Below, piece after piece: positions 2 to 30,448 of a DNA stretch of 64,000 nt (within the stretch, counting starts at the first letter, position 1; every line of letters starts with the position of its first letter). This DNA comes from Tribonema minus. Its lineage: Eukaryota; Sar; Xanthophyceae; Tribonematales; Tribonemataceae. The stretch is taken from the NCBI GenBank assembly GCA_017506865.1, contig JAFCMP010000133.1:124001-188000 (forward strand), written 5' to 3'. Below the pieces are notes generated by a model. It was not told the origin of the DNA. It saw only the letters and a list, made by a program, of their open reading frames with translations, and did not search any database. Made by a program: the position numbers and the translations under genes.

Positions 2-3000
2 GCCGTGGCGAAGCGCCTCGCGGCAGCCACAGGCGCAGCCACGGGCGGCCGCGTCATGGTCATGAGCGTCCTCGAGGGCTCCAACAACCGGCGCCAGCGC
101 GCGTGGGCGTGGGCGGAGCCGCCGCACGTCGTCATCGGCAACCCCGAGACGCTGAGCGCGCTCGTCGCGGGCGGCGCCGTGCGCTGCAACGGCGTGCGCT
201 ACGTCGTCGTGGACGAGGTCGACGCGTGCCTGCGCAGCGGCGACGCGCGCGCCGCGCTCACCGCGCTGCTGGCGCGGCACCTGAGCCCGACGTTTGCGCA
301 GGTGCGCGCCGCGCCGCAATCGTCCTTTCAGAGATTGAGGACGCGCTGATTGGCGGCGTAATCGGGGACCAGGCGTAGGATGCGTGCTTTTACGATCCCG
401 GGGGGAAGCCGGCAGTGTGCGGCCCTCTGCGCGGCAGCGAGGGGTTGAAAGCCGTTCAGCTTCTGCTGCCGTAAAGCAGGCCATCTATTTGTGATAGCCT
501 GTCTTTCTACTGACGACTCGTGTGGGCTGATGCCGGGAGGCGCTTCTGGCGCGGCACCTGAGCCCGGCATTCGCGCAGGTGCGTGCAGCGCCGCGCCGCG
601 CGGCGTGATCCGTCGTTCTTTCAGTTCGAGGACGCACTGGTGACGGCGCAATTGGGGACCAGGCATAGAGTGCGTGCTCCTGGGCAGCCGGCGGTGTGCC
701 AAAGCACGCCTCGAGGTGACAGGCAGCCAACGAGTGTTGGCCACAGCTGCAGTAGAAGCGATAGCTGGGAGGCGCAGTTCAACGCACTGACCGCGGCCCT
801 GCGCGCGGCGGCGAGGTTTCGGTGGCCGTTCACCTTCCGCGGCGCAGCTGCCGTGGCAGAGGCCACCCATGCGCGATTCGCCCCGTCCATTTTTCGACTG
901 AGCACGCGCTGCTGACGGCGCGTGTAGGGGCTGATGCTGGGAGGCTGATATTTGCGTGCGCCCGCGCCGCCGCCGCCGCCGCTGCCAAGCAGGAGGAGGA
1001 GGCGGAGACGCCGCAGCTGCCAGGGGGCGTCGCGGTGACGGGCGCTACTCGGCAGCATCCTCATCTCTGCACACGCTGCCATTCACTTGAACGATATCTA
1101 CGCGCCCTTTCAGCGCACGCCGCACCGCGCACCCGGCCCCAACCCTAGCTCTACCCCTAAGCAATCGCACGCATACGCTCTGCCTGCGCGCCGCCGCCGC
1201 CGAGCAGGAGGAGGAGGCGGAGGTGCCGCAGCTGCCGGGGGGCGTCGCGGTGACGGGCGCTACTCGGCAGCATCCTCATCCCTAGCTCTAGCCCTAAGCA
1301 ATCACACGCATTCGCTCTGCCTGCGCGCCGCCGCCGCCGCCGCCGCCGCCGAGCAGGAGGAGGAGGCGGAGGTGCCGCAGCTGCCGGGGGGCGTCGCGGT
1401 GACGGGCGCGGCGGCGGCGGCGGACGGGGCGCGGCGGCGCGTGCGCGCGCGGCAGACGGTGTTCGCGAGCGCGACCGTGCCGCAGCACAACCACTTCATG
1501 CGCCAGTGCGTCGCGCAGCAGTGGACGCTCGCGGAGCCGGTGCACGTGCAGGTGACACTCAATTGCAACCCTACCTGTAGCTCTACCACTTATCCTGACC
1601 ATAGCCCTAGGATTAGCGCTATTTCGGAGTTTGCCGCTTCGTGCGCCAGTGCGTCGCGCAGCACTGGACGCTCCGCGGAGCCCGTGCACGTGCAGGTGAG
1701 CTCTCACAGTCATAACTGTCGTCGAGTGCATCATAGGATACATTCCTCTACGGGAGCAACTTAATCCGCGAACAAGCCACAGACTTTGTGCCCCGGAACT
1801 CCCGCGCCGCTGCGCACGCGTCCCGCTTCCGTACTTCATGTTTCCCCTCGAACTGCACGGTGGCTGGCTGGCCGCCGCCGCAGCATCGCCGCGCCGTGTG
1901 CTTTTCTCACAGAGGTGCGCTGCCTGGCAGCGGAGCAATACATTGCGTGTGCGCATGGGTGGCTGCACTGCCAGATGCACGTTCAATTTAGCAGCGAACG
2001 TGTCAGCGGCGCCAGCGCACGGTGAGCATCAGGACGGTGAGCATCCGCGCCGTGCCCCCCCCCACCCCGTAGAAGGAGCTTAACCGCCTGGCACTTGTGA
2101 CGCAAGTCGGTCCAGCGCTACGCTGCAAAGCAGTTCGCGGAGTGCTTTGTCGCAAGCATTTTGTTGCACGTGTGTGCGACGTCGCGCAGAGCGCAGATGA
2201 GCATCACTGCCAGCTGCGGCTCTTGGAACTCACTTCAGCATTTGCAGCTGGAGAACTTTATACAGCTGGAGATTTGCTGCGCGCGCGCACCCCCTGCACA
2301 CACAACACGCTCCGCTCCGCTCAGCGCTCATCACAGCATAACGCCGCCGCCGCGCAAGCGCCATGCAATGCGGGTGGCAGGCGCTGGGCCTCACCCACTG
2401 TGCGTGTGTGTCACAAGTCACGGGCGCCCACGGCCCCCCCTTCGCCATCAATCCGTTGAGCGTTGCTGCCACCGCATCTGTGCGCCCGCCACACTCGCAC
2501 GCGCTGCCGCTGAGCCATGTGGACGCCGCCGCGCCGTCGCCGCCGCCGCCGCCGCGCGCAGGTGCACCCGAAGGAGGCCATGCCGCCGGGCCTCACGCAC
2601 CACTACGTCACGTGCGCGCCGGCCAAGAAGCTCGCGGCGCTGCGCGCGCTCGTGCGGCGCGAGCTCGGCGGCGACGGCGGCGGCGGCGCCGCGGCAGCAC
2701 CGCGCGCGCTGGTCTTCGCGCAGGCCAACCGCCCGCTGGACCAGATGGCCGCAGCGCTGGACGCCGACCTGCGCAAGGCGCGCGGCGGCGGCGACGGCAG
2801 CGACGGCAGCAGCGCCGCCGCCGCGGCGCGGGACGGCGGCGCAGCAGCAGCAGCGGGCGGCGGCAACGACGCGGCGGCGGCGGCGGCGCCACTGGCGGAT
2901 GTGCTGCGCGAGGACCTTGGGCTCGCGCGGCGCGCGGACGCCGTCGCGCGGTATCGTGCCGGCGCCGCGCGCGTGCTGCTGACGACGGACCTCGCGGCGC

Positions 3001-3248
3001 GCGGCCTCGACGTGCCGGAGACGACGCACGTCTTCCACTTCGACCTCCCCGCTGACGCCGAGGGGTACATACACAGGGGGGGGCGCGCGGGGCGCCTCGG
3101 GCGCGCCGGCCGCGTCGTGAGCATCGTGACCCCGGAACAGGAGTTTGTGCTGCAGCGGCTGGCAAACGCCGTCGGCGTGGAGGTCGCGCAGCTGGGGAAG
3201 GCCGCTGGCGCTGGCACCGCTGTCGTCGCACCTGCAGCCAGTCAATGA
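2..3248 (+). CDS. RH58-like DEAD-box RNA helicase, 3' part (N-terminus outside window)
   Basis: ATP-dependent RNA helicase of the plastid RH58 type. Exons: 2-301, 1357-1551 and 2562-3248 (stop TGA 3246-3248), with phase-0 junctions. The first exon carries PPHVVIGNPETLSALV (motif Ib region) and the DEAD-box variant VVVDEVD. The second has the SAT motif in QTVFASATVPQHNHF. The third has helicase domain 2, with motif V TDLAARGLDVPETTH and motif VI YIHRGGRAGRLGRAG. The DEVD box, the VFASA.IPQH block and the C-terminal EFVLQR block fit Arabidopsis RH58 as I remember it, better than other DEAD-box proteins. Long Ala/Gly-rich inserts (about 2680-2890) lie between the conserved blocks. Motifs Q, I and Ia lie before the window. 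The start of exon 2 is the least certain boundary, because the preceding DNA holds two decayed copies of it. Family call firm; RH58 subtype and plastid location inferred. Confidence 0.85.
541..720 (+). repeat. Decayed copy (echo) of helicase exon 1 end plus intron start
   Basis: The stretch around 546-590 repeats the end of exon 1 (267-301) including the CAG|GTGCG donor. About 600-690 then repeats the following intron DNA (about 315-390): ATCGTCCTTTCAG-like, GACGCGCTGATTGGCG-like and GGGGACCAGGC. It lies inside intron 1 and no longer encodes a usable exon. Confidence 0.8.
961..1300 (+). repeat. Two echoes of the start of helicase exon 2
   Basis: Copies at about 961-1064 and 1190-1290 repeat the (GCC)n tract, the CAGGAGGAGGAGGCGGAG block and the CTGCCGGGGGGCGTCGCGG block found at the true exon start (about 1326-1410). 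Both echoes end in the same GGGCGCTACTCGGCAGCATC tail, whereas the third copy runs on into the conserved helicase sequence. The intron DNA between them (CTCTGCCTGCGCGCC) is repeated too, giving a tandem array of about 130-230 bp units. Confidence 0.85.
1636..1705 (+). repeat. Echo of the helicase exon 2 donor end
   Basis: This stretch repeats the exon 2 end (1496-1560), from the CTTC-TGCGCCAGTGCGTCGCGCAGCA block through GTGCACGTGCAG and an intact GTGAGC donor. It is frame-damaged relative to the exon and sits inside intron 2. Confidence 0.8.
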
Positions 3249-3320
3249 TACTGCTTTTGAATTGAAACTGCTTTTGAAGTGATACTGCTTTTGAAGTGAT
3301 AGTGCTATTGAAGTGATGGC
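3245..3320 (+). repeat. Short tandem repeat in the helicase 3' UTR
   Basis: Three to four units of about 19 bp (GATACTGCTTTTGAAGT-like) begin at the stop codon of the helicase gene and run into the presumed 3' UTR. Confidence 0.75.
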
Positions 3321-4373
3321 TTTGAGAAGATGTTGGTGGTGGGCTGCGCGCGATGCTTGCGTGGCTGCTGGCTTGCTGCGCGGCCATTTTGCTTGCTGCA
3401 TGCGTGGCTCTCGAGTTGCGGCGGCACTGTCTTTTTGCGAGATGCAACGGGCACCGAGCCGTGTAGGGCTTCCCAATGTGTCTGGATGGCGTACGTGCTG
3501 TGCTACGTGATTGGGATGTGAGGCGTGCAGCAGAGCAGTCGAGCACTGCCACGTCAAAAGGGTCTCACTGAATCATTTGAGCAATGCCCGGATTGTGTCG
3601 TTGATAGGGCTAGGGTTCGGATTGTGCCCGCTGGCCCGGCCTTGCGCACGTGTACGCCTGTTCGCGCGGCGCCGCTCTTGCAGCAGTCCGTCTCACACAT
3701 ATACAAAAGCCGTATGCAGCCAGCGCTGAACAGTCAGATTCCAAACCGTATGACCACCCAGGTGTTGGTGGGCACACCATGACCGTTGCGAAGTGGCGTC
3801 TCTATTAGACTATAATACTGAGCTCATGGCAAAGCGTACTTCGACGTTAGCATACGATCGCTGGACATGATAGGCGCTGTGGTGACTGAGCCTGCAACCG
3901 TGTTTGTCGCACGCGGTTGTTTGCCTGAAGGCACGCCATGGCGCTGCACTGCGCACTGCGGCGCTACTGGCAGTAGCACTTCTTGGCACGCCTGGAATGG
4001 CCTCCATACCAGTCCTTGCAGTATATGATCTGGTGACGACATGCACTGCTTGGCGTCTTACATGCTTGGCATCGACATTACTGGCATGCTTCACATCGAC
4101 ATGACGGTGCATGGTCGAGGTATGGTGGCTAGATGTGGCTGAACTCGGTTGCATCCGGATAGAGTCTGGAGCGTCGCACCCAATCATGATCGAGTTAGGC
4201 AAAAACGCTGCTCGGCACGCCGCGGAGGTGTGACATTGGGAAGCGCCGTTCCTGTCCTCTGCAGCAGTGACGCAGTCGTCTGTCGTCTTACCAGCCGCAG
4301 CAGCGCACTTACACATCCGGCCATTCAGCCACGGCACACATCACCGAGCTTCCTTCCAACTCCAGGTTGATCC
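3321..4373. other. Helicase-MetE intergenic region
   Basis: Both flanking genes point right, so this should hold the helicase 3' end and the MetE promoter. I see a degenerate telomere-like stretch near 3598-3620 and no convincing TATA box, open frame or RNA gene. The last roughly 60 bases (ending TCCAACTCCAGGTTGATCC) are probable MetE 5' UTR. Confidence 0.5.
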
Positions 4374-7300
4374 ATGACTGCCGCGCAGACTGCCACCCTC
4401 GGCTTTCCTCGCATTGGCCCCAATCGCGAGCTCAAGAAGGTGAGTGGACATTGCTTTTGCGTGCAATTGTCCAATTCACCAGCTAGCGCCGAGTAACACA
4501 AAGAGACGCCATGCGGTTTGTGAAGTGCTGCGTGATGATAAAATGGGGCTACACACCTCGCTGGCGGTCCAGTCCATCACTTCTGGAGCGGCAAAACCGG
4601 CGAGGTGAGCCGTACTTGAGCGTGTTAGCCATGCGCTATATGCTGTCAGCAAGCGGCGGCTGTCTTGTACATCCGCGGCACGGGATCCATCGAGAAAACA
4701 GCCTCGATGCGGTTGATGCGTGTGACAGTGAAGCCGTGAGTCATGCGCTCATACTCAGTGGATGAAAGAGCTTATGCGCCGCTGTGCGTGCACAATCAGC
4801 CTCGCTAGACGGTGGCGCCAGCTCATGCCGCAATCATCGAAAGCGGCCGCTTGCCCCAGAAGGCATACGTACTCCCCCCCGCAGCGCGTGCACTTGTTGT
4901 ACACACATGCCGCTGCGGCCTTGATTCTGACAAACGCTGTCAAGATCCTGCTTCAGTCGAATCAATCTCAATAGCTCACTATTACAAACATACTGGCAAG
5001 CATACGTACTTCGCTGCGCTCAGGGCGGTTTTTTTTTGCGGGGCTGCAGCGACTTCGCCTGGGCTGCAGACCTGTAGGAATTTATACTTGTACTTTTTAT
5101 TAATCCTCGCTCAGGGCGCGAAAAAGCCCAGATGATTGGCATCTAGCTGTAAAGAATCTACATGTTGTATGACAGTATGAAAGTGTCGCAACGACAACCA
5201 CTCAAACGCCGCCGCCGCCACATGGCATACTTGTACATGCATCAGCCGGTATACTTGCAAGCAGTGCGCGTGCATAGTCCGGTGCACCTCATTCACACAG
5301 GGCTTTGCTTACAAAAGTACGCTAGAAATGTAAGTGGTAAGAGATGATGCAACGTGAACGCTCTACAGTACGCCGCCTCTCACCGCCATCAGCTGCGGGT
5401 GCGCCGTGCCCCCCCCCCCCCCCCCCCCTGTACAGCTGAGCCGCATACACGCTGGCATGTGTTTGTGCCTACCTGAGCCGTAACGTGCAGTGCATACATA
5501 GTAGGCGACCTGCACCGAGTACTGTAAGCATGCTGGCACAGGCAGGTATGCTTGCACCCTGAGCCAACATTTCAGTACGCGCCCCAAGCCGTGACGTGCG
5601 CGTTCAACCCGCGGTATGCTGAGCACCGCCAACTTGCTTATATATGGGTACGTATGTATGCGCCCGCCTTGAGCGGCAAGGCACACCAGCCGAGCGCTGC
5701 ACCCCCTGCCGGCGTAGGTATGTATGCACACGCCGTCCTGAGCCGTGTCATCCGCATCAGCTGAGCGCTGCACTCCCTTCCTATGGGTATGTATGTATGC
5801 GCGCCGCGCACTGATCCGTGCTGCACATCCCCCCCCCCCCCCCCCACCTCCCCGCGCGCACCTCAAGCCGGGGAGGCCCACTGGGCCACCCGTCGGTACA
5901 AGCATATGCATGCATGTATGCGCGCCGCGCCCTGAGCCGTGCTGCACATTCCCCCCACCGGCCCCCCCCCCCCCCTGCAGGCCGTGGAGGCCCACTGGGC
6001 CGGCAAGCTGTCCGAGGCCGACATGCTCGCGGCCGCGCAGAAGGTGGAGGAGGAGGCGTGGTCGCTGCAGGCGGCCGCGGGCGTCGACCTCATCGCCGTC
6101 GGCGACTTCAACCTGTACGACCAAGTGCTGCAGTACACCGACGCGCTGGACCTGGTGAGCGCGCGCACATTTGCTGACCGCTGTGGCAGCGGCGGTGATC
6201 CTGTTAGTGTAAGGGTTAGGGCTAGGGTTGGGGTAACCCTGAAACAAATAGAAAGTGCTAGGGCGCACGCGCCAGTTGTTGAGTTTGCAGCACTATTACC
6301 GGTGTGATGCGTTCAAATGTAGGTAGTGCATCATCGCTGTCAGCGACTTCAACCTGTATGACCAAAAGCTGCACAACACCGACGCCCTGGACCTGATGAG
6401 CGCACACGCCGTCGCTGAGCGCTGCTGCAGTAGAGTATTGTGTATATAGTGTGCCAATACATCCATTGGCAATGTGTCAAGGAAGTCGGCTGCTGTTGAT
6501 TGATTTGCTGGCAGCTTTGCCGCTGTGGCACGTGCGCTGCAGTGCGCTGGTTTGCTGGATCCAGCGCATCACAGCCTCAGTGCTGCGTAGACTTGAAAAG
6601 CAGATCATTTGCAGAAAAGCAGGTTGTTTGCAGTAACAAAGTGGTATTGGTTATGGCCACGTGATGATGATTCGCCATTGCCATCAAAATCCCAACTTCT
6701 GTGTGAGAGTGCGGCAGCCATGCGTCTGCTCAGGCTAGTCTGCTCCCGGCTGCTTCAGTAATTGGCTCAAGTGAGAGTTTGAATAAATATATAACCCCTC
6801 CCTCAGTTGTATATAATCTATGTACTTATTAATTCTCGCTCAGGGCGCGAAACAGCCCAGACAAATGGCATCTAACTTGAAGCTTGCTGTGCGGAATCTA
6901 CATGTCGTGTGACAATCCGAAAGCATCTCAACGACAACCACTCAAACGCCGCCGCCGCCAAATGGCATCTCCGGATCCTCCACTACTTCCTCCTCCACGT
7001 GCCCCCCCCAATCTATGTACTTCAAATATATGTATGCATACACATAGAGCCCGCCTTCTAACGGCTCTCACAAAGTACCACCAAGCTCTGCGATCCTCCA
7101 GGCAGCAGAACATACGGGTAGGCACATTTACCCTAAACGAGCATACCTGCCGCTGCTCGCTGCTGCGCAGGTGCCGGAGAGGTTCGCCGGCGTCCAGAGG
7201 GGTACCGCCAGGGCGTTCATGATGGCTCGCGGCGCCGAGGGCAAGCCCGCACTCGACATGACTAAGGTGCGCGACGAATTCTTTTTCTTCACATGATGTG

Positions 7301-10300
7301 TAGTGAGCAGATGACGGACGTACCGTGTGTCATTGTCACTTATTCTCGCTTGAGGCGCATGATGGCGCGTGGCGCCGAGGGCAAGCCTGCACTCGACTTG
7401 ACAAAGGTGAGCGTCGTTGTATTGTTCCTCCACATCATGATAATCAAGCCTCTCAATTATTGTTCCATGCTTGAGTCAGCGAATTGGTGGACCTACCGCA
7501 TGTACCTACGTGACGCAGGTGCGTGCATCAAGAAGCCCGCTGCAGACAAATGCCGAATTGCGCGCCCATTTATCGAGCAATTCACGCGGCGGGTTGTAGT
7601 GACCGTGGTCAGGCAGTCTGCGGCCGCCAACGCATCTTGTTTCCGGCTGTATGTGCGCACATGGGTGCTGCTAGTAGTGTTCTCAACAGAATGTGTAGGT
7701 CCCTTAAATGAGCGCGTCAAGACCCAGGCAGCAGGGCACGACAAAATCATAACATGCCCACTGCCACAAGCTAGAGTTCAACGACCCTCTACTGAACGCG
7801 TGCTGCTGCACACACACACCCCCCCCGCCCCCCCCGCCGCCCCCCACCCCAGTTCTTCAACACCAACTACCACTACAATGTCCCCGAGCTGCGCGTCGAC
7901 ATGGAGCCGCGCCCCGCCTTCACAGCGCTGCTCAGCAGCATCAAGCGCGGCGTCGCGGCGCTCGGCGGCGCGCGCGCCGCCGCCGTGATCCTCGGCCCCG
8001 TCACCTTCCTCCACCTCGCCAAGTTCACCGATGGCGGCAGCGCGGCGGCGGGGCGCGCGGCGCTGCTCGCGAAGCTCGTCTCCGCGTACCGCGCGCTGCT
8101 GCGCGACGCGGCAGCGCTCGGCGTCGCCGAGCTGCAGCTGCACGAGCCCGCGCTGTGCGCTGCCGCCGACAGCGCGGAGCTGCGCGCGCTGTACGCGAGC
8201 GCGTACCCCGCGATCCTGGAGGCGCTGCCTACGAGCGGCGCCGGCGCCGCCGCGGTGAACGTCGTGTCGTACTTCGATGACGTCGACGACGCGACGTTCG
8301 CGTGGCTCGCCGCGCTGCCGCGCGTCGCGGCGGTGTCGCTCGACTTCACGCGCGGCGACGCCGTCGGCGTGCTGGCGCGCCACGGCCCGCTCGTATGTGA
8401 GGGGAGCGCTAGCGCCGGCGGATATCTCCATTGCATGTGTATTCCTCTCGGCTCTGCGCGCGTTTGTTGAGCCTCCCGGCAATGCGATCGGGTGTATTTC
8501 TCGACTATATGCGCGGTCGCTGAGCATCAGCTGCAATGCGAATCTTCGCACGGCGTTGTTCTGTGGCCCGGCAGCGTCAGTTGTGTGGTGCTGGCTTTCT
8601 TGGCGCGGCTTGCGGTGCAAAGTGCGGGGTTTTGAATGCGCTCTGTACAGGAGCTCACGCGGCTTGATGAGCGGCCACGCTTGCTGAGGGGTGCGGGCAG
8701 GCTGCAATGAGCACTGCCACATGTACTTCGAATGTCGTAGGCAGGTATGCATAGAGCTGCCGCACCCTCACACGCAGCAGAGCCGTTGGCGAGGTCAGCC
8801 GGCACCACCTGCTGAGACGTGAGCTCACTGCAGCTCCAATACGTATGCAAAATACGCTGTTTCATGTCATCCAGCACACCATACAGAACTATCTCGGCTC
8901 CTGACTGCACCCCCCCCCCCCCCCCCCCCCCTCTGTCCGCATTTATAAAAAGCTAGTCATTCAGCCTTCTCATTTGATTCTGAAAGGCATGTTTTATGTC
9001 TGGCTGAAACGTGTATGTGTGTAACGGCTGTCATTGTTCTCCCCCCCCCCCCCCCCTCGCCCCCCACCCCACCCCCCAGGCAAGACCCTCGGTGCCGGCG
9101 TCATCGACGCGCGCTCCCCCTGGCGCGCCGACCCCGATACCATCCTACCCCTGCTGCGCGCGATCCGCTCGGCCGCGGGCCCCGCCACCCCCATTCGCAT
9201 CCAGCCCTCCGCCAACCTGCAGTTCGTGCCGGTGGACGCCGCGTGTGAGAAGGGGCTGCACGCGGCGCGACCCGCCGTCGCGGGGGCGCTCGCGTTCGCG
9301 GCGCAGAAGCTGCGCGAGCTGCGCGACGTCGCCGCGGCGCTCGCCGCGGGCGCGGACGGCGCCGCCGCCGCCAAGGCCCTCGAGGTGCGTGCTACTCATC
9401 GCCATCATCGTAAATGAGTTTGAAGTGTGTTCTGTGCTCCTTAGCCATGATGTCGCTAGGTGATGCCTGTAAAGAGTATGAAGGTATGTAGGTATGTGTA
9501 ATGCTCGCCCCGGATATGTGTAATGCTCGCCGCGGGCGCGGACGGCGCCGCTGCCGCCAAGGCCCTCGATGTGCTTTCGTTGGCAACGTCATTCAGAAGT
9601 GATCGTCAACGCGCAGTGAGACTCTTTCAGGGTAGCCACAAGATGCGTGTGAAGAGATGCAGGTGTAGGTATGAGTGATGTTTGCCGCAGGCGCGGACGG
9701 CGCCGCCGCCGCCAAGGCCTTTGAGATTCGTGCTACGTAGCCATCATTGTGGGTGCTTGAAACCAGTGCGTGGCTACACACTGCAGCACTGCCGTGCACG
9801 CTCGCATGCACTTGCAGGGTGGCCACAGCTCGAGTACTTCTATGTGTACACGATGTGTCTTCAAGTAGTAGTGCCAGTGAATGTAAATCCTGCGTTGAGT
9901 ACAAATATATTTACAGATGTACATACTCTTACAAATGTTCATGCGCGGTCGCTGCAGGCGCACGCAGCCGCGTGGGCTGCCTTCCGACGTCGGGGCTCAG
10001 CGGCGTCGCGTGCGCGGCCGCCGCGGAGAGAAAAGTGGCAGCGCTCGGCGACGGTGCCTTCATCGCTCACAACCGGTATTGTTATCATTCATGTACATAA
10101 ATGTTTTATGATTTCATCGCTCACGCGCGGTCCCTGCAGGCGCACGCGGCCGCGTGGACCGCCTTCCGCGCGTCGACGTCGGGGCTCAGCGGCGCCGCGT
10201 GCGCCGCCGCCACAGAGAAGAGGGTGGCAGCGCTCGGCGACGGCGCCTTCAAGCGCGCGCTGCCCTTCGAGGAGCGCGTCAAGCTGCAGCTGCCGGGGCT

Positions 10301-13300
10301 GCCGCTGCTGCCAACGACCACCATCGGCAGCTTCCCGCAGGTGCGCGCGGCGCATGCAAAAACTCCGTGGTGTAGTCGTTTGTCGGTTGAGCGGTTTGGG
10401 AATTTGATGCGCGCCTTGTGGCAAAAGCAGTGAAGGACTATGGAAATGGACGGTTGAGGTCTTGCTGATTTGATTGCTCAATCGCGCAACGCTGGGCCTA
10501 GAGTGCACTCCAGTAGGTCAGAGCGACACTAGGCGAGCTTCATCCATCCAAGCGCACTTTGCCCCTTTTGAGGGAGTCGGCGCAACTTCAAGTTGCAACT
10601 GCCCCCCCCCCCCCCCCCCCCAGTGGTGTGGGACCGGGTGGCCGACAGCATGAGCAGAAGCATGCAATGGTCAATGCTCACTAAAACAATACAAGCACTT
10701 AATGCAAAAATGAGAGTGCACACTGACCCTTGGGGTTACGTTGAATCGTGGTTTTCTGGGCTGCCGGCCACAATGCGGCCTGGCACAGCCACTTTTAGGC
10801 TCTCTCTTGAGAGTGGTTCACGGCCTGCAGTGCAGCTCTCAAACACGAATGCTGAGGCTGACTGCGCTGCCGCATCTGAGCTAGAGCCAAACAGTGGTCA
10901 GCATTTGACTGTGGAGGGGAGCGCACGCTGCCCTCGAGGCCAGGGATAGGGGCAAAACTATGGTTACAAATATAACCAGAGGGTTGGGAAGAGCACATTC
11001 AACTGTTTCGCCGCTCTGAACGCCATAGCTGGCGGGGTCAGGCGTAGCTGATTCCGGCGCTGCTGGCTTGCATGGCATTCCCATGGATTGCAACTTCCAA
11101 CTAGTGCTCGAAGATTTACGCACATGGCGCTGTGTACACAACATGCTGTAGACATGAATTACAGTTTCTGGCTTCATCAGCTCGATTACTTGAAAGTATA
11201 CCATTATTAGGTAGCATCTGTCAACGACGCCGAGAGTAGTAGCTTCCATCCTAATCATCAAAAGTCAACAATGATTGCTATACCTACTCTTGCCGCTGCT
11301 TGCTGCCAACTGCGGCAGCAGTGAGTGAACGAGGCTGTTGGCAAACTGCCGCAACATCAGAGGCGCCGCCGGCAGTTATCATCAGAATTAATGCACACAC
11401 TTGATGTGAGAGCATGCAGGCTCATCGGGCTTTGCTTTGCGCGTTTGTACGTCAGCTGAAGGCACCCACTGCGAGATACGCTGCAGCAGCAGAGTATGGA
11501 ATGTTGCAGCCGCATCTGTTGAAACGAGTGTGTGCCATCAATCCGTTCAACCACCCCCACAAATGGATGCTCACAGAACAACATAAGAGCCGGCCCTCTC
11601 GTGACCCCTTCGCGATCTGTGTGCCGCCAATGCGTTCAGCTATCCACAAGATGGATGCTTCCTGAACAGCGTCACAACTAGACCACTGTCGTACGCAGGA
11701 TATGCTGCAGTAGCAGAGCCCGGAATGTTGCAGCTGCATGTTTGTGTACCGTCAGTCCGTTCAACCAACGCCCCATACGATGAATGCTTCCGAAACAGCG
11801 CCTCAACCCGCGCTTTCTTGCGCTCTTTGTAATGAGGGTGCCGTCGATGCCTTCCACCACCCACAAGGTGGATGCGTCCAGTACAGCGTCTCAACCCTCT
11901 TTTGGAATACACAACCCTCTAATTAGACCACTGCCGTACCCCCTTGATTGCGCAGACCCCCGAGGTGCGCCGCCTGCGCAACCAGCTCAAGAAGGGGACC
12001 ATCATGCAGGAGCAGTACGACCGCGCCATCGACACGCACATCGCCTACGCGATTGGGGTGCAGGTACGCACGGCTGCGTGCCTGCATACCGTGTGGCGTC
12101 TTGCGTGTCATATCGTATGCAACGTCATGCGTTCCATACGTCATGCATTATATACCTGCCTGCGGCTGCATACCTGCATGCCCTGTGGCGCCATGCATTA
12201 CATACCTGCCTGCGGCTGCACACCTGCATACCCTGTGGCATCAGTCATTACGGTGTCATGCATTGTATACCTACCCGCGTCTGCATACCTGCATGCCCTA
12301 TGGCGCCATGCACCATCTATCCCATACTCTTGATGCAGGCAATCAGGCTTGGGGGGAGCTCGCTCGCTTTTTTTTTTTTTGACGTCGCGCCAGGAGCGCG
12401 CTACGCATGTGCAATACCTGCACACTCTGTGCCATCACCACCTACTTTTGAGTGTGCTTCCGACACTGGGCGCAAAGCCTCCAGCGCACTCCAAACAAGG
12501 CACGCCGCAGTGATTTCGACAGTTCCAAGTCCAGCACCGGCGTCGCCGCGCTCTGCCATGCACGAAGCTGCAGCCGCCACTGAAATAGTACTGAAGCGTG
12601 TGAGCCGCTGCTTCACCATGAAACTTCAAGTCAGGCACTGTGAATTTTCAAGTCAGGCACTGCGTCACCCCTTGAACATGTCCGCAGGACGCGCTACCCC
12701 TTGACATCCTCGTGCACAGCGAGGCCGCGCGAATGGACATGGTTGAATTCTTCAAGCTGAAATTTCCAGTTTAGTGCCGCGTCACCCCTTGAACCTCTTT
12801 CCCGTCGCGCAGGATGCGCTGGGCCTCGACATCCTGGTGCATGGCGAAGGTGAGCGCACCGACATGGCCAAAACTTCTTAGAGAAGCTGAAACTTCAAGT
12901 CTGATGCCGCTTCACCTTTTTGAACGTTGTCTCCGCCTTCGTGCGCAGGGCGCGCTGGGCATCAACATCCTCTTGCACGAACATGATTGAGTACCTTGAG
13001 CTGAAACTTCAGGCCTCGAAGTCCAATGCCGCATCACACCTTGAACTTTGCTCCCGTCGCGCAGGACGCGCTGGGCCTCGACATACTCGTGCACGGCGAG
13101 GCAGAGCTGAAACTTCAATTCTAAAGCCGCGTCACCCCTTGAACTTTTTCCATTCGCGTGCAGGACGCACTTGGCCTGGACATCCTCGTGCACGGCGAAG
13201 CCGAGCGCACCGACATGGTGGAGTTCTTTGGCCAGCAGCTCGAGGGCATGGCCTTCACGGAGAACGGCTGGGTGCAGTCGTACGGCTCGCGCTGCGTGCG

Positions 13301-15981
13301 GCCGCCCATCATCTGCAGCGACGTGTCGCGCCCCAAGCCCATGACGATCCGCGAGTTCAAGGTAAGATAGGGGCGCCGCAACATTTAATCAAATCCTGTC
13401 CGGCTCAAATTTGTGGATGAGCTTCAATAATGCTACGTTTGACTGAGGATGTGCGGCCGCCCATCATCTGCGGCGACGTGTCGCGCCCCAGGCCCATGAC
13501 GGACCGCAAGTTCAAGGTGAGAAGGATTAACACAGGGACCTAAGTCCCATCAGCATGTTCAACTGGTCGCTTCCCTGTGCACATGCGTCGCGCAACTGTC
13601 TGCTGAACTGAGCATCATGCCATCGCTCCAGCCCACTCCTGGTGTGCCGGCAAACAAGCCGTGGACTTGCGGCTGAGCTGTTGCACTGTCCTGCTCGCTG
13701 TTTTGTTTATCATCGATCATCTCCCTTCGCGATATTTGCGGTTCACTTCTGCTGTTCTGTTGCTCTGGTGCGCGCCGCTACCCGCATTACATTTGCAGCG
13801 CCCGCGGCACAAGGTCTGCCTCCAAGGCGGCCGCGCACTGCTCTTTGCGCACTGATCATCATCTTCATTTGTGATTTTTTGTCTCTGCTGCACGCTGCTA
13901 CCCGCATGACATGCGCTGCGCCCGCGGCGCGAGGTCTACCTCCAAGGCGGCCACGCACTGCTCTCTGCGCACTGATCATTATCTTGATTTGTGCATCTTT
14001 CATCAAATTATTGTTGTGATTCACTTCTTCTGTTCTGTTGTACTGTTGCGCGCCCCCGCAGGTGGCCCAGTCCATGACCGACAAGCCCGTGAAGGGCATG
14101 CTCACGGGCCCCATCACCATCCTCAACTGGTCCTTCCCGCGCGCGGACGTCGACCGCAAGACGCAGGCCTACCAGCTCGCGCTCGCGCTGCGCGAGGAGA
14201 TCAAGGACCTCGAGGACGCCGGCTGCAGGGTCATACAGGTATGAGCACTGCTGTTGTGCTGTCAGTAGAGGTCTTGTGGAATGTATGGAGGCACTTGATG
14301 GCAATGGCGACCTTGGAAACACCATAGAATGGCCCAGCGCTCGCGCTTGCACTCATGCTGCGTGCTGAGGTCCCCTCAAGGATGCCGGCTGCAGGGTCAT
14401 TCGGCTATGATGAGCGCTGCTGTGATGCCTCTGTAGGGCAGGTACACAAGTGAGGGCAAACTTGAACACGCTACAAATCAGACCAACTCGCGCTCGCACT
14501 GCGCGAGGAGTCCCAGGGCTTCGAGGACGGTGGCTGCAGGGTCGTGAGCGCTGCAGTGGTCACCGTGGTGCTTTGGAGGGCAGGTAGGTAGGTAGGTCAA
14601 GCTTAGGAATGCCATACTTGACGCAGAATAAACCAATTCGCGCTCCCGCAGCTCCAAAGGGATTTAGGGCGCTGAAACGTGCCTGCTGCAGGGTCAGCAA
14701 GGTGCCACACACAGGGCACGCGCTGCAATTCAAGTTGCACTGGCGCGCGCAATTGCCTATCCACCACCACGCATACAAACTGCACAAGGGCTCATCGGCC
14801 TCTTTCAACACCTGCTCGCCGCTTGTGCACTGACCGACACCCCCCCTGTCCCCTCCTATCCCCCCCCCCCTCTCAGGTGGACGAGCCCGCGCTGCGCGAG
14901 GGCATGCCGACGCGCCCCCAGCAGAAGGAGGCGTACCTCAAGTGGGCGGTGGACGCGTTTCTGCTGGCCACCGTCGGCGCGCGCCCCGAGACGCAGATCC
15001 ACACGCACATGTGCTACTGCGAGTTCCAGGACTGCCTGGGCGCGATCGCGCGCCTCGACGCCGACGTCAACTCCATCGAGAACAGCCGCAGCAACAACTC
15101 CACGTGAGCGCCTGCCGTCGTTGCGTTGCGCCGCCGCCTGCTGCTCTTCTTGCCATCGTGATACTTGGAGAAGCGTAGTAATGTGCAGTAGCAGAGCATC
15201 ACGTGCCTTAGGATTAGGGTGAGATTAGGGTTAGATAACCCTAACCATAATCCGCCGCACGCTGCTCACCACGGCATGCTTTGCAAAGTGTATGAATGCG
15301 CATCAGCAGAGCTTCACGTGCCTTAGAGTTAGAGTTAAATTAGGGTCAGCTCACTTCAGTGTACATCAAGGTATTATTCTGTGCGGCTCAAAGCCTGTTG
15401 CCAAACTTTGAACAGGCATCAGGCCAGTCGGACAGAGTCACAACACCTACTCAAATAATTACTTGCACCTCGCAAGATCACAAATGGGTGCCGCTTTAGG
15501 CTGTAGAGACCGGTAAAACATCACTTTCATGTCCGAGCACGCATAGAAAAAGCTGCCTGCCGTCGAGGTCCGAGACCCCCCGCGCTCCCCCTTGGCACCT
15601 TCCACATGTCAAGGCACGCAGTACTGCCAAGCAGCGCATGACCCCCCCCCCCCCCCCCCTCCCAGGCTCGAGTCCTTCGCCGCAGCGGGCTACAAGCACC
15701 TCCTCGGCCCCGGCACGTACGACATCCACTCCCCCGTCGTGCCGTCCGTCGACGACGTCGCCGCCAAGCTGCGCGCCTTCGCGACCGCGTTCCCGCTCGA
15801 GCGCATCGTCGTCGGCCCCGACTGCGGCCTCAAGACGCGCAAGTGGCACGAGGTCATACCCGCGCTGCGCAACATGGTCGCGGCGGCGGCGGCGCTGCGC
15901 GCGGAGGTCGCCGGCACCAGCGGCAAGGGGCACGGTGCCGCCGCCGCAGCTGCTGTCCGCTCTAACGGCCACTGCTGCTGA
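4374..15981 (+). CDS. metE: Cobalamin-independent methionine synthase (MetE), 11 exons, 803 aa
   Basis: Transfers a methyl group from methyltetrahydropteroyl-polyglutamate to homocysteine to make methionine without B12 (EC 2.1.1.14). Exons: 4374-4439, 5981-6154, 7171-7266, 7853-8396, 9080-9384, 10140-10340, 11956-12063, 13164-13361, 14062-14238, 14877-15103 and 15666-15981. They sum to 2412 nt and join in phase. Two junctions fix otherwise ambiguous sites: donor 8397 (GTGAGG) with acceptor 9079, and the phase-2 join 15103/15666, which makes NNST-LESF. The start gives [20 protein letters not shown], the usual N-terminus, with no targeting extension, so probably cytosolic. Zinc ligands H667 and C669 (THMCYCEF), E691 and C752 (PDCGLKTR) keep the E. 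coli spacing. Other family blocks: [46 protein letters not shown] and [10 protein letters not shown]. The tail has about 28 extra Ala-rich residues. Almost every intron contains decayed exon copies (listed separately). Confidence 0.96.
5086..5228 (+). repeat. Dispersed hairpin repeat, copy A
   Basis: First of five related copies (others near 6819, 47344, 55685 and 60076). It reads TTATTAATCCTCGCTC, then the hairpin-forming GGGCGCGAAAAAGCCC, then a GGCATCTAG block, AATCTACATGT, AACGACAACCACTCAAACG, GCCGCCGCCGCC and a final ATGGCAT. It lies in MetE intron 1. Probably a short non-autonomous mobile element; class unknown. Confidence 0.75.
5409..5428. repeat. Poly(C) tract in MetE intron 1
   Basis: About twenty consecutive C bases. 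A similar run lies at 5829-5845, and another (interrupted) run at 5951-5975 sits directly before the CTGCAG acceptor of exon 2. Comparable tracts precede or lie in introns at 8910-8931, 9041-9056, 10602-10621 and about 15642-15663. Confidence 0.9.
5866..5893 (+). repeat. Echo of the start of MetE exon 2
   Basis: GGAGGCCCACTGGGCC follows a poly(C) run, as at the true exon start (5981). The next 60 bases (TGTATGCGCGCCGCGC, TGAGCCGTGCTGCACAT, poly(C)) repeat the preceding intron tail, also seen at about 5790-5845. The unit is therefore intron tail plus exon start. Confidence 0.75.
6203..6240. repeat. Degenerate telomere-like tract in MetE intron 2
   Basis: GTAAGGGTTAGGGCTAGGGT followed by TGGGGTAACCCTGA: imperfect TTAGGG repeats that switch strand at the end. 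A similar tract lies at about 15211-15250 (TTAGGGTTAGATAACCCTAA) in intron 10, and another at about 35125-35170. Confidence 0.6.
6330..6412 (+). repeat. Echo of the end of MetE exon 2
   Basis: This repeats exon 2 from the ATCGC-GTC-GCGACTTCAACCTGTA block through ACACCGACGC-CTGGACCTG and the intron start GAGCGC. The donor is mutated: the true GGTGAGC (6154-6160) reads GATGAGC here. Confidence 0.85.
6819..6969 (+). repeat. Dispersed hairpin repeat, copy B
   Basis: Same orientation and order of blocks as copy A: TTATTAATTCTCGCTC, GGGCGCGAAACAGCCC, AATCTACATGTCGTGTGACA, AACGACAACCACTCAAACG, GCCGCCGCCGCC, AATGGCATCT. It has about 10 extra bases in the middle. It lies in MetE intron 2. Confidence 0.75.
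7350..7412 (+). repeat. Echo of the end of MetE exon 3
   Basis: It encodes the same [16 protein letters not shown] end as exon 3 (7229-7266) and is followed by an intact GTGAGC donor. The exon 3 start is not copied. Confidence 0.85.
9495..9740 (+). repeat. Two echoes of the end of MetE exon 5
   Basis: Copies at about 9526-9575 and 9684-9740 repeat CTCGCCGCGGGCGCGGACGG through GCCAAGGCCCTCGA (true copy about 9338-9384). The second also repeats the intron start (GTGCTAC...CGCCATCAT). In both, the GAG|GTGCGT donor is destroyed (GATGTGC and GAGATTC). A further short piece is near 9500. Confidence 0.85.
9945..10065 (+). repeat. Echo of the start of MetE exon 6
   Basis: It repeats GCGCGGTC-CTGCAG and the first roughly 100 bases of exon 6 (true copy 10131-10250), including the GGGGCTCAGCGGCG and GTGGCAGCGCTCGGCGACGG blocks. 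The acceptor CTGCAG is intact, but an internal deletion of about nine bases and later substitutions make it unlike the true exon after 10065. Confidence 0.88.
11450..11905. repeat. Nested degenerate tandem repeat in MetE intron 6
   Basis: Four units of about 55-60 bp (near 11529, 11616, 11744 and 11838) share a GTGCC-TCAATCCGTTCA, CCACAA-ATGGATGC and AACAGCGTC pattern. They sit inside a larger unit of about 225 bp that also repeats GAT-TGCTGCAGTAGCAGAG and GGAATGTTGCAGC (11480 and 11703). Confidence 0.8.
12075..12330. repeat. Tandem repeat of about 60 bp in MetE intron 7
   Basis: Units read CATGCATTATATACCTGCC, GCGGCTGCATACCTGCATG, CCCTGTGGCG. About four degenerate copies follow the exon 7 donor; the first overlaps the intron start (GTACGCACGGCTGCGTGCCT), so the array may have grown from the junction itself. 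Confidence 0.8.
12680..13115 (+). repeat. Four echoes of the start of MetE exon 8
   Basis: Acceptor AGs at 12687, 12812, 12948 and 13064 are each preceded by CACC-CTTGAAC-T and followed by GCGCTGGGCCTCGACATCCT-like sequence, as at the true acceptor (13163). Spacings are 125, 136, 116 and 99 bp. Each unit closes with an AGCTGAAACTTCAA-like spacer. The second copy has gained a GTGAGC donor (12850), so 12813-12849 could act as a 37-nt cryptic exon that would shift the frame. Confidence 0.92.
13449..13522 (+). repeat. Echo of the end of MetE exon 8
   Basis: It repeats GTGCGGCCGCCCATCATCTG, GCGACGTGTCGCGCCCCA and CGCAAGTTCAAGGTGAGA (true copy 13297-13367). A GT donor is kept. Confidence 0.88.
13735..14061. 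repeat. Tandem duplication of the intron 8 tail before MetE exon 9
   Basis: Two units of about 130 bp (about 13745-13870 and 13873-13998) share GCTACCCGCAT-ACAT, GCGCCCGCGGC, GGTCTACCTCCAAGGCGGCC and GCGCACTGATCAT. A partial third unit (14018-14061) repeats TTCACTTCT-CTGTTCTGTTG and ends at the exon 9 acceptor. Confidence 0.85.
14330..14705 (+). repeat. Three echoes of the end of MetE exon 9
   Basis: Copies near 14337-14405, 14484-14545 and 14632-14700 each repeat CTCGCGCTCGCACTG-like sequence and GGCTGCAGGGTC (true copy 14174-14245). The first two also repeat the intron start (GAGCGCTGCTGTG). Decay increases with distance from the exon. Confidence 0.85.
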
Positions 15982-23332: not shown

Positions 23333-25919
23333 GACCGCGTCTCCACGCTGCTAGAACCCATTGGCCAGTTTGGGGTCGGCGCGCGGGGGGGCGCGGAGAG
23401 GTGGCGCTCATGGCGCAGCTCACGCATGAGTGCGGCGGCGTGCTCCTTGCCATTGACGGCAGTAATGCCTTCAACGCGCTGTCGCGCTCGGCAGTCCTCA
23501 CTGCGGTGGCCGAGCATCTGCCTGGCCTGTACGGCTACGCCGTAGTACGTCGAGCACATCTACGGCCCCGGGCGGGCCCCTTGGCTACAATTTGGCCTAG
23601 ATGGGCACGCCGACGCCGCGATCATCCTCTCCCAACAGGGCGTGCAGCAGGGCGACCCATTGGGGCCGCTGCTGTTCGCGCTGGTACTGCGCGGCACCAT
23701 GGTGGCTGCCCGCGCCAAGTTCCCGCAGCTGGCGCTTCCGGGCTACCTCGATGACCTCACCATCATGACACCCAGCTGTGACGCGCCAGTGCTCGGCCAC
23801 GTTGGCCGCGCGTTCCGCTTCATACAACAGGCGCTGAGCGAGCTAAACATTCAGGTCAACGTCACGAAATGCGCGGCGCTGGTGCCGGCCTCAGGCGGCG
23901 CTCGCGAGCGCGCCGCCGCCGTCTTCGCTGCCGCCAATGTCCCCGTACCAGTATGTGACGACGGCATCACGCTGATGGGGGTGCCGGTTGGCACCGAGGA
24001 CTTCGTGCGCGCACACGTAGTGGCGACCCTTCGTGCCCCCGGCACCGACCGCCTGGTGGCGGAGCTGGTGCAGATGGAGGATGTGCAGGCTGCCTTCTCG
24101 ATTCTGCGTCTTGCTGTCCCCGCCCGCGCAGGGCATGTCGCACGCAACACGGCGCCGTCCCTCACGCACGAGGAGCTACGGCGCTTCGACGCCATCACGC
24201 TAGCGGCCGTGGCTGCGCTGGCGCAGGAGCCATCGGCGGGCCTTACGCCGCCGGCCCACGAGGGCGCGCCGGCGGCTGGTGACGATTGCCGCGGCCCGCC
24301 AGCGGTTGCGGCGGCGGCGGCACCGCCCTCTCTGTGGGCGGCGGCAGTGGCATGGGTACGCGGCGCCGACTGGGGTGGCGAGGCCCCGGTGACGCTACTA
24401 GCACATCAGCAGGTATGCGTGCATCTGCGGCTGGGGAGCGGTGGCTTTGGCGTGCTGGGCGCGGCGCCGCGTGCATGTGCCGCATTTGCTGCGCGTACCC
24501 TCGAGTGCATGGGACCGGCACTGGCGGCGTTTCCAGTGGCGGCACGCAGCCGCGTCCTGGAGCACGCCCGCTACGGCTTCACCTTCACTCAGATAGCTAC
24601 CTGCCTGCAGCAGCTGCGCAGCGGCAGCGATGATGCCGCAGCGGCCTCGCACTGCTCCTGCCCTCGGTCTGGTACCAGGACTGGCGCCAGGACGACGGCG
24701 CATGGCGGGCACTGCGCGATCTGCTGCAACGGGCAGGCGGAGCTGCGGGGCTGGGCATGCGGACTCGCGCCGGCGCGCGCTGCGCTGCGCCAGCGGCGGC
24801 GCGCGAGCCAGGCTCTGCCCAGGCCCCGCCGGCCGCCGTGCTGCCGCGGCGTCAAGCCGCGCTATCACGGGTGCTAGACGCAGCGCTCGCCGCCACGCAG
24901 CTGCGCCGGCTTGAAGCAGCAAATGCGTTGGAAGCAGTCGCGGCGTGGCGCAGCGGCGCCTCTAAGGGGGCCATGGGTTTCTTGGCGCAACTGCCGAGCA
25001 CTGACCCAGCGGAGACCATGTCGCCGCCAGAATTCCGCGAGACGCTGCGGCGCCACCTGGGCGTGGAGCGCCCCGCCTCCGCTGCGGCGCGGTGCCCCAA
25101 GTGCCATAAACCGGTGGACTCAGGTGCCCACCTGCGCCGCTGCACACAAGGGCTTAACGTCACGCGACACAACTTGCTCGCAGACGCGCTCTTTCAGCTG
25201 CTCAAGCAGGTGGCCCACCTCCGCGGTCTCGACCGGGACACCCTTGCCCCCTTCCGCCGCTACGCTGCGCGCCACGGGTTCAACAAGTTCATGGACATCG
25301 TCTTCGGCAGCAACCAGATCTGCCTTCTAGTCCCTAAAGTGCAGCCGAGCGCCGACGCGGTAGCGGCAGGCCGGTGCACTAAACTGCGCGGCGGCTTTGA
25401 AGTAGCTTGTTGCATAGACGTCACCATACGTGACAGCTCATGTCCCTCCCGCCTCCGTCAGGCTCAGGGGGGCGCGCGCGATGTGCAGCGCGTGCTTGAA
25501 TCGGCTTCGCAGGAAAAGATAGACACATACGTAGTCTCAGGGGCCCTGGACCCCACTACACACACCCTATTTTCCGCAGCCTTTGACCACTTCGGCGCTA
25601 TGTCACGCGACACACAAGCGCTGCTACACGCACTCGCCGAGCAGAGCTCGCAGGGCAGCTACAATCTCGCGCAGCGCGTTGCCTTTTGGCGCCCCCGCAC
25701 CTCCCTCGCGCTACAGTGCGCGCTCACACGTGTCGTGATCGACAACTGGAACGCAGTCATTGCCCCTGATGGCGACGTCAGCGCTTACCGCCGCATCGCA
25801 CTGTTGCAAGTGCCGCGGCCCTCGCCGGCCAGCGCCGAACCGCCGGCCCTTCCGTAGGTTTAGTTATTGCAAGCCCGACTTATCGTGCGCGCAGCCCATG
25901 CGGTCCAGGACATAACATA
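23333..25919 (+). mobile_element. Non-LTR retrotransposon (RLE-type), copy 1, frameshifted
   Basis: The polymerase region shows QFGVGARGGAE (about 23366-23400), domain A LLAIDGSNAFNAL (about 23450-23490), domain B GVQQGDPLGPLLFAL (about 23640-23683) and domain C GYLDDLTIM (23741-23767). The frame shifts near 23395, near 23540 and near 24640, so this copy is dead. The C-terminal part is intact: a C-x2-C-x8-H-x3-C finger (CPKCHKPVDSGAHLRRC), then a segment with CCIDVTIRD and EKIDTY that resembles the restriction-like endonuclease core of R2-type elements. Stop at 25855-25857, then a roughly 60-bp 3' UTR ending CATGCGGTCCAGGACATAAC. No LTRs and no poly(A). The 5' junction lies in a decayed AACTCAAAC and the 3' junction faces AACTTCAAC, a probable 9-bp target duplication. 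Confidence 0.85.
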
Positions 25920-25943
25920 CAACTTCAACGGTGGGTTGAACTT

Positions 25944-26952
25944 CGGGCTTGAAGCAGCAAATGCGTTGGAAGCAGTCGCGGCGTGGCGCAGCGGTGCCTC
26001 TAAGGGGGCCATGGGTTTCTTGGCACAACTGCCGAGCACTGACCCAGCGGAGACCATGTCGCCGCCGGAATTCCGCGAGACGCTGCGGCGCCACCTGGGC
26101 GTGGAGCGCCCCGCCTCCGCTGCGGCGCGGTGCCCCAAGTGTCATAAAACAGTGGAGTCAGGTGCCCACCTGCGCCGCTGCACACAAGGGCTCAACGTCA
26201 CGCGACACAACTTGCTCGCAGACGCGCTTTTTCAGCTGCTCAAGCAGGTGGCCCACCTCCGCGGTCTCGACCGGGACACCCTTGCCCCCTTCCGCCGCTA
26301 CGCGGCGCGCCACGGGTTCATCAAGTTCATGGACATCGTCTTCGGCAGCAACCAGATCTGCCTTCCAGTCCCTAAAGTGCAGCCGAGTGCTGACGCGGTA
26401 GCGGCAGGCCGGTGCACTAAACTGCGCGGCGGCTTTGAAGTAGCTTGTTGCATAGACGTCACCATACGTGACAGCTCATGTCCCTCCCGCCTCCGTCAGG
26501 CTCAGGGGGGCGCGCGCGATGTGCAGCGCGTGCTTGAATCGGCTTCGCAGGAAAAGATAGACACATACGTAGTCTCAGGGGCCCTGGACCCCACTACACA
26601 CACCCTATTTTCCGCAGCCTTTGACCACTTCGGCGCTATGTCATGCGACACACAAGCGCTGCTACACGCACTCGCCGCGCAGAGCTCGCAGGGCAGCTAC
26701 AATCTCGCGCAGCGCGTTGCCTTCTGGCGCCGCCGCACCTCCTTCGCGCTACAGCGCGCGCTCACACGTGTTGTGATCGACAACTGGAACGCAGTCATTG
26801 CCCCTGATGGCGACGTCAGTGCTTACCGCCGCATCGCACTGTTGCAAGTGCCGCGGCCCTCGCCGGCCAGCGCCGAACCGCCGGCCCCTCCGTAGATTTA
26901 TTTATTGCCCGATTATCGTGTGCTCAACCCATGCGGTCCAGGACATAATATA
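25944..26952 (+). mobile_element. Non-LTR retrotransposon copy 2, 5'-truncated
   Basis: Begins abruptly at sequence equal to 24909 of copy 1 and runs through the same CCHC finger, RLE-like segment and stop (about 26893-26895), nearly identical at the nucleotide level. Its 3' end (GCGGTCCAGGACATAATAT) matches copy 1. It is flanked by AACTTCGGG on both sides (25935-25943 and 26954-26962), a clean 9-bp target duplication. 5' truncation plus a short duplication is the hallmark of target-primed reverse transcription. It encodes no polymerase. A frame of about 342 codons is open from flanking DNA at 25867. Confidence 0.88.
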
Positions 26953-27100
26953 CAACTTCGGGACGTGAGTTCACGTGAGTTGGCTGGCACTCAAAGCAGA
27001 ACCCCAAGGGCGGCAGCAGCAGCATATCAACCTTTCAGCGTGCAACTTTACTGCTGTCAGTGGTGACGCCGAACGCACTTAGCAGAGAGGGGAGGTAGCC

Positions 27101-29403: not shown

Positions 29404-30448
29404 TTGATCACATGTGTGAGCGGCTTGCGCCATGATGGTCGAATGTGGGTTTCATGCTGTTTCCACATTCATTGCCGCATCAACGGTCTTCCTTATGACA
29501 ACCGAAGCGTCAGCTCATCAGCTACAGCAGGGCGCCACATGGCAGTGCTGCAGTGGCTGTGCCATATTGGCTGCCAGTCCACCGCAACGGTGTGTGCCGC
29601 TGCGGCAAGTGGTCTCCATGTGCTGCAATGGGCGCGCGCCAACGGCTGCCCTGGGATGAGCAAGTTTGCCATGCCGCTCTGGAGCGCGGGCACCTGGAGA
29701 TAGAGTAAATGCAGTGGGCTCACGCCTACGGCTGCCCCTGGGACACGAGCGAGGCTCATGCGTATCAATATATGTGTGATAGTATGCTGCGGCACAGAGC
29801 AGCTTGGAGCTGCTGCAGTGGGCTCACGGCCAAGGATACCCATGGCACGTACACATGTGCAGCATTGCTGCAGCAGCACGCGGGGGTCTCAAGTTACTGC
29901 AGTGGGCGCGCTCATGCGAATGCCCCTGGGACGAGGACACCTGCAACCGTGCTGCGGGGAATGGATGTTTTGCGGTGCTACACTGGGCACGCGCCAATGG
30001 CTACCCCTGGGATGCATGCACTTGCAGCAGTGCTGCAGACGGGGGGCACCTTGAGGTACTGCAGTGGGCACGCATCAACGGCTGCCCCTGGGATGCACGC
30101 ACATGCGGAGCCGCAGCAAGAAAGGGGCACATCGAGGTTTTGCGCTGGGCGCATGCCAACGGGTGCCCCTGGGACGAGGCAACGTGCGCGGGACTCGCCA
30201 GCGGTGGCCACTTTCAGGCTTTACAGTGGGCACGCGTCAGCGGGCGCCCCTGGGATGTGCGGGGTCTGCATGCAGTGCATGTGGCCTCGCACGGAGACTT
30301 GGACATGCTGCAGTGGGCGCGCGCACGCGGGTGCCCGTGGGACGGCAGGACCATGGTTGTTGCCAGAGATTTATCGCACCACCAGGTGCTTGAATGGGCA
30401 CGCGCAATTGGGTGTCCTGAGCCGGAGGATCCAGTGTTGATGCCATGA
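29404..30448 (+). pseudogene. CPWD-type ankyrin-like locus A3, multiply frameshifted
   Basis: The first part (29404-29703) reads AGRHMAVLQWLCHIGC and HVLQWARANGC, then breaks. A middle piece reads MQWAHAYGCPWDTSEAHAY in another frame (29709-). The rest (29804-30448) is open and carries about eight units (MELLQWAHGQGYPW ... CEPEDPVLMP-like end). At least two frame changes are needed to join them. It lacks the MAEAEISV start and is more diverged than A1 and A2 are from each other, so it is an older member of the cluster. Confidence 0.75.

Follow-up and report, generated by a model that had tools for sequence, protein, structure and literature searches.

Tandem duplication across splice junctions as a probable source of intron length in Tribonema minus

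Results

The stretch analysed here, hereafter the window, comprises 64,000 nucleotides (nt) of contig JAFCMP010000133.1 (assembly GCA_017506865.1, positions 124,001 to 188,000 of the forward strand) and belongs to the 158-megabase genome, in 554 contigs, of Tribonema minus, a yellow-green alga of the xanthophytes. Two genes near its start, one for a DEAD/DEAH-box helicase and one for MetE, carry in their introns decayed copies of the borders of their own exons; such a copy, part exon and usually part intron, lying within the adjoining intron, is here called an echo. The MetE gene (4374-15981) is formed by 11 exons (4374-4439, 5981-6154, 7171-7266, 7853-8396, 9080-9384, 10140-10340, 11956-12063, 13164-13361, 14062-14238, 14877-15103 and 15666-15981), which when joined encode 803 amino acids with 100% identity to the deposited T. 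minus protein. The deposited protein uses the outermost splice sites and, for MetE alone, shows no extra exon between an echo and the used exon. The helicase gene, whose 5' part lies beyond the window, was modelled with coding exons at 2-301, 1357-1551 and, as the last one, 2562-3248; this model is our own, its single line of support being the matches of the joined frame to Pfam DEAD and Helicase_C. Both genes, and the echoes in them, lie on the + strand.

In the helicase gene, the end of exon 2-301 and its donor flank recur at 540-678 (unit 277 nt; 76% over 142 columns; equalled by 0 of 500 shuffles), the sole further match of this donor query in the whole genome. Exon 1357-1551 is echoed at both edges: its acceptor edge at 965-1045 (an older echo, whose alignment covers 53 nt of exon and 28 nt of intron, with 0 of 500 shuffles as good) and at 1189-1260 (a younger one, the exon part 53/53 identical), its donor edge at 1634-1706 (61 exon nt, 92%, with GT kept and a frame-breaking insertion of 1 nt). 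In MetE, the acceptor edge of the exon starting at 5981 is echoed at 5840-5887 (21 exon nt, recognised by the score test, within a wider intron array at 5648-6001) and its donor edge at 6331-6430 (82% over 100 nt; GT changed to AT). The donor edge of exon 7171-7266 recurs at 7354-7439, with GT kept and as the sole further genomic match, and that of exon 9080-9384 recurs twice, near the exon at 9525-9574 (96%) and farther away at 9684-9750 (86%). The acceptor edge of exon 10140 is found at 9939-10062 (112 exon nt; 84% over 131 columns), and that of exon 13164 forms an array of four echoes at 12662-13107 (12662-12752, 12755-12867, 12885-12979 and 12998-13107); genome-wide, the query from this acceptor matched the four echoes and itself, and nothing else. 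The donor edge of the same exon, 13164-13361, is echoed at 13451-13525 (92% over 72 nt; GT kept), and that of exon 14062-14238 at 14331-14436 (by the shuffle score test), at 14482-14543 (85% over 62 nt, the intron part unaligned) and, weakly, at 14632-14696.

A preliminary description of the window, made from the letters alone, had counted about 17 such copies, listing 18 places, and had proposed that they arise by tandem duplication across splice junctions. We aligned each exon edge, together with 30 nt of its intron, locally to the named place and to 500 dinucleotide shuffles; 17 of the 18 places outscored all shuffles, the one at 14632 marginally (31 against 27 for the best shuffle). The place at 12948 gave no valid shuffle test because the search window slid onto the copy at 13064; it is instead documented by the genomic match at 12885-12979 (76%, E 9e-10). 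The claim that every copy spans a junction stood for 16 of the 18, those at 14484 and 14632 having no aligned intron bases, and at 9526 just four intron bases align. MetE and the helicase together have 24 junctions and 12 introns; self-BLAST finds echoes at 11 of the junctions and in 9 of the introns, and a score test with a threshold alignment score of 44 and length-matched pieces of other genes' introns as controls finds them at 10 of 24 junctions, against 0/480 control introns. The exon-edge echoes in the helicase and MetE introns are thus confirmed as genuine.

Recurrence elsewhere in the genome was assessed in twelve 20-kilobase (kb) stretches of other contigs, together with the window. 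A gene finder trained on this material itself predicted 24 genes with 100 introns; the third of its settings was kept, the first two having over-called tiny exons. A 20-kb piece of contig C1 with a guanine-plus-cytosine (GC) content of 73% was excluded from gene finding; GC on this contig (L003-L004) is 72-75%, against about 50-60% in most other stretches, and the contig is possibly a bacterial contaminant. MetE and the helicase formed part of the training material, and the fit of the finder to these two genes is therefore no independent test. It called as exons three echoes in these two genes (993-1034, 1208-1249 and 12813-12836) and one in a gene for chaperonin gamma; before counting, its MetE and helicase genes were replaced by our models and the echo-exon in chaperonin gamma was removed. 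In the genes other than MetE and the helicase, the adjoining intron held an echo for 28 of 176 junctions, whereas the control pieces gave 0 of 3520. Other introns of the same gene gave 5/864 (0/184 for MetE and the helicase), and a looser score of 36 raised the control counts to 4/3520 and, for MetE and the helicase, to 1/480. At least one echo was found in 12 of the 23 intron-bearing sampled genes. Genes of the chaperonin family (four loci) were picked by family and not by inspection; 6 of their 34 junctions had an echo, against 0/680 controls. Five of these six junctions belong to a single gene, and the remaining one scores at the threshold. One intron of chaperonin gamma (L029:3487-4500) holds at least six donor-edge echoes, one of which includes 141 nt of exon and is the echo called an exon by the finder. 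The sampled exon ends recur in their flanking introns in excess over control introns, and the earlier suggestion that the process is repeated in this genome is borne out.

The copies are direct and local. Among repeat pairs no more than 1500 base pairs (bp) apart, 190 were direct and one was inverted over 13 pieces of sequence, with none in shuffles; the GC-rich 20-kb piece of contig C1 is counted in these totals. When five junction queries were searched against the whole genome, nine further matches lay in the same intron and one elsewhere (53 nt, 85%). As a positive control, a dispersed element of 139 bp from MetE intron 1 gave at least 43 genome matches, with 40 of 264 candidates scored; most matches are 96-98% identical, and the element, of about 139 bp, occurs in MetE introns 1 and 2 (5097-5228 and 6826-6968). 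Copying into the intron concerns the exon edge: segments 120-190 nt from the junction were found there in 1 of 105 cases, and the far edge of the same exon in 0 of 112 (exons of at least 180 nt). Queries made of exon alone had given the impression, partly false, that the similarity ended at the splice junction. In a separate comparison of the flanks, the intron flank of 26 of the 38 echoes was more similar to that of the used junction than all 60 controls from unrelated introns. Offsets are mostly 75-600 nt, with a median of 138 nt for clusters at junctions and 109.5 nt for interior ones. Where a junction has several copies, these are regularly spaced at about 110-170 nt, for example at 146, 311, 448 and 610 nt from a donor. 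The echoes are direct tandem duplications of a segment inside a gene, and in their regular head-to-tail spacing they resemble minisatellites, as in an array of period 99 at 13028-13206. Near-identical copies in many unrelated genes, as expected of introners, were not found with the five junction queries, and copies of a whole exon with both flanks, as expected of tandem exon duplication, were not found in the 112 cases examined for the far exon edge.

Tandem duplications that contain no exon sequence share introns with the echoes and were missing from the preliminary description. On the + strand of MetE, they lie wholly within intron 6 (11475-11895; 70% over 207 columns, offset 224), intron 7 (an array at 12140-12312), intron 8 (13742-13993; unit of about 122, 84% over 132 columns) and intron 10 (15131-15349; unit 121, 73% over 104 columns), and a further exon-free duplication in a MetE intron was found by self-BLAST at 5648-5820. 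Of 387 interior windows of 70 nt, 48 were matched by a second copy within their intron; among exon edges the figure was 43 of 179 (p 0.0008). In 75 introns, 33 of 49 duplication clusters touch a junction and 16 are interior; the expected ratio of junction to interior clusters is 0.32, uniform placement putting about one-quarter of the clusters at junctions, and the observed ratio is rough either way, as some clusters scored as interior are pairs of echoes. Bases in tandem pairs make up 14.7% of introns and 5.7% of sequence outside predicted genes. Contrary to the proposal in its original form, the process is not specific to junctions, with tandem duplications occurring inside introns and outside predicted genes as well.

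The differences between echoes and used exons are informative as to which copy has remained coding. At junctions with several echoes, sites at which the echoes agree and the exon differs fall at the third codon position in 17 of 19 cases. This bias in exon-lineage changes shows that, once duplicated, the outermost copy went on evolving under coding constraint. Sites that differ in some echoes only are distributed as 42, 45 and 70 over the three codon positions. A selected coding role for the echoes themselves was considered and rejected, as a frame-breaking gap is present in 24 of 73 echo alignments and a stop in the exon frame in 10. Eight of the 73 alignments come from one intron (intron 2 of S25-9821) and a similar number lie 51-55 nt from the junction; both groups probably reflect low complexity. 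In chaperonin gamma, the outermost exon joined to the next one is gap-free at the join when compared with solved gamma subunits. At 16 of the 19 junctions with at least two echoes, the nearest echo resembles the exon more closely than the farthest one does; the reverse holds at two, and one is a tie (sign test p 0.0013). By alignment score the nearest prevails in 14 against 3 (p 0.013). Such an age gradient is expected if duplication occurs repeatedly at the used junction, so that the intron grows there. The third-position bias and the greater similarity of the nearest echo are both predictions of the model in the preliminary description, although unstated there, and both came true. Its claim that the used exon is always the outermost copy does not stand in that form, being partly true by construction, as a copy in the intron lies by definition inside the used exon; the pattern is also largely what selection would leave, given that duplications putting intron sequence into the messenger RNA (mRNA) would be removed.

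The arrays, measured from the junction to the last echo, have a median length of 249.5 nt; they take up 34% of the sequence of those introns in which they occur and 13% of all intron bases sampled. Introns with echoes have a median length of 1055 nt (n=27) and those without one of 691 nt (n=48; p 0.028), a comparison in which longer introns also give chance more room.

Several other features were noted in the window. Some duplications are 96-100% identical and separated by short spacers: 51938-52034 and 52050-52146 (spacer 15 nt), 57878-58196 and 58208-58526 (11 nt), and, in the same range of identity, 24908-25926 and 25946-26959 (19 nt). Spacers were shorter than 20 nt in the seven pairs inspected among 35 pairs of at least 90% identity, and such spacers may be filler DNA from break repair. 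Telomere-like CCCTAA motifs number 26 in the window, against a shuffle mean of 13.9 (for example at 1155, 1292, 6216, 15214-15244 and 46104-46121), and several are in echo-bearing introns, with no tie to the duplications established. Long C tracts occur in MetE introns (for example 5408-5428, 5830-5845, 8911-8931 and 14860-14870), several of them directly upstream of acceptors, as in introns 1, 4, 9 and 10. Coding-like tandem repeats of 81 bp are present at 28085-28277 and 29970-30174; their NGCPWD motif is presumably ankyrin-like.

Discussion

We propose that the echoes are probably the product of a high rate of tandem duplication of non-coding DNA in this genome. The duplicated stretches would be short, with offsets mostly of 80-300 bp, and would presumably arise through replication slippage or break repair. 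A unit that includes a splice junction would provide the gene with two copies of the site; splicing at the outermost site, which we expect to be the one used in living cells, would leave the transcript unchanged, so that the duplication would be tolerated and the inner exon edge would become intron, the filtering of duplications presumably being performed by selection. Repeated events at the used junction would push older copies deeper into the intron, where the echoes would decay free of coding constraint, with the used exon changing mainly at synonymous sites. The earlier idea that exon edges are turned into intron, with lengthening of the intron, is supported by the local, direct echoes that recur across genes, and tandem duplication across junctions by the homologous intron flanks of most echoes. 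As a route of intron gain the process is not supported: no new intron was seen, and introns are lengthened instead.

In favour of an insertion of introners or transposons adjoining exons, dispersed elements do occur in introns here. The echoes, however, match their own exon alone, locally and in direct orientation, and with a single match elsewhere for the five junction queries an origin from dispersed elements was rejected; we give such insertion next to no probability, and the contrast with introners drawn in the preliminary description is upheld. An artefact of assembly, through misjoined haplotypes or read errors, is most improbable, as the copies show graded divergence and indels of their own, and many contigs carry the pattern. 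The echoes might be degenerate remains of whole tandem exon duplications, in line with the chaperonin gene whose 141-nt exon copy was taken for an exon by the gene finder, but the far exon edge was found in the intron in 0 of 112 cases and this origin is very improbable. More weight is due to a process directed to junctions, in which breaks or slippage favour splice junctions over an even spread, for example through transcription-linked damage. The junction clusters and the frequent copying of exon edges speak for it; the interior windows, however, show that duplication is general, and a conserved exon partner prolongs the time over which a copy can be detected, raising the share of junctions with no targeting at all. 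We take the junction excess to be mostly such persistence, and consider targeting rather doubtful.

Several observations weigh against the proposed general tandem duplication. The flanks of 12 of the 38 echoes do not beat all unrelated-intron controls, and the 33 of 49 clusters that touch a junction exceed what uniform placement would give. The differences found in some echoes only have a mild third-position excess of their own (p 0.003). The exons outside MetE are calls of a self-trained finder, which took some echoes for exons, and 11 of the 23 intron-bearing sampled genes have no echo, one of them at 0 of 22 junctions. Moreover, the exon halves are kept better than the intron halves, with a mean identity of 0.908 for the exon part and 0.676 for the flank (flank positions 7-46): a simulation of neutral tandem decay at the observed exon identity yields flanks of 0.84-0.87, and when long indels are added so as to fit the flank, a fraction of about 0.58 of the simulated alignments extends to the junction, whereas 34 of the 38 real ones do. 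Between echoes, the exon part is again the more similar (0.858 against 0.750 in 22 pairs; 0.863 against 0.759 over 13 junctions). This excess preservation could stem from conversion from the exon, from lower mutability of GC-rich exon sequence or from selection. Local gene conversion, or selection on a role in splicing, may keep echoes exon-like, their similarity then partly reflecting maintenance and not recent origin; conversion weakening with distance would produce the same nearest-echo trend, and the age gradient could mirror it. Retention of the splice dinucleotide in 33 of 38 echoes speaks for such maintenance, but if decay is one-sided and runs at the rate of the exon part (about 0.9 per base), a dinucleotide should be retained in about 0.8 of cases anyway, and the frame-breaking gaps and stops make a coding role unlikely. 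We regard maintenance of this kind as a possibility of some substance, albeit an unlikely one.

Tandem genomic duplication has been considered in the origin of introns, and Gao and Lynch in 2009 and Hellsten in 2011 are cited for intron gain by this route. In the potato RdRp gene, a tandem duplication crossing an intron-exon boundary created a new intron and an inserted exon, and an 83-bp duplication within the first intron left the gene structure unchanged (PMC4974935). That is one event with a new intron, whereas in T. minus the copies lie inside existing introns, at donors as well as acceptors of many genes, with the mRNA unchanged. In the Rogers model, an intron is gained when an exon segment bearing AGGT undergoes tandem genomic duplication (reviewed in PMC3443670); as in that model, the duplication seen here is intragenic and its product is hidden by splicing, but the source is not the exon interior and no intron is created. 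In Drosophila, novel intron positions arose through sliding or tandem duplication (PMC2891723), and there, too, duplicated exon sequence is involved and one copy becomes intron; in T. minus, by contrast, positions stay and introns lengthen. Introners likewise represent a repeated process that adds intron sequence, but they are dispersed elements (PMC9860276), whereas an echo is copied locally from its own exon. The T. minus echoes are thus a variant of tandem genomic duplication, and boundary-crossing duplication itself is already known from one potato gene. A literature search, which tests absence weakly, did not bring up any account in which repeated duplication of junctions adds to the length of introns.

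Differences in intron length are usually ascribed to transposons and small indels. Junction duplication represents a third, measurable source beside these. As the used exon remains at one end, where copies are apparently added, earlier states of the exon edge are preserved in order along the intron, and the ordered echoes document synonymous change and decoy splice sites within a single genome; they also show how often a genome can carry duplicated, intact-looking splice sites with no change in the protein. A more far-reaching reading, which we hold to be rather unlikely, is that introns grow outward like tree rings, through duplication biased to the used junction together with local conversion from the living exon or a constraint linked to splicing, either of which would keep fossil exon edges readable far longer than their surroundings. 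If this were true, each intron would be a dated, ordered archive of the past states of its own exon.
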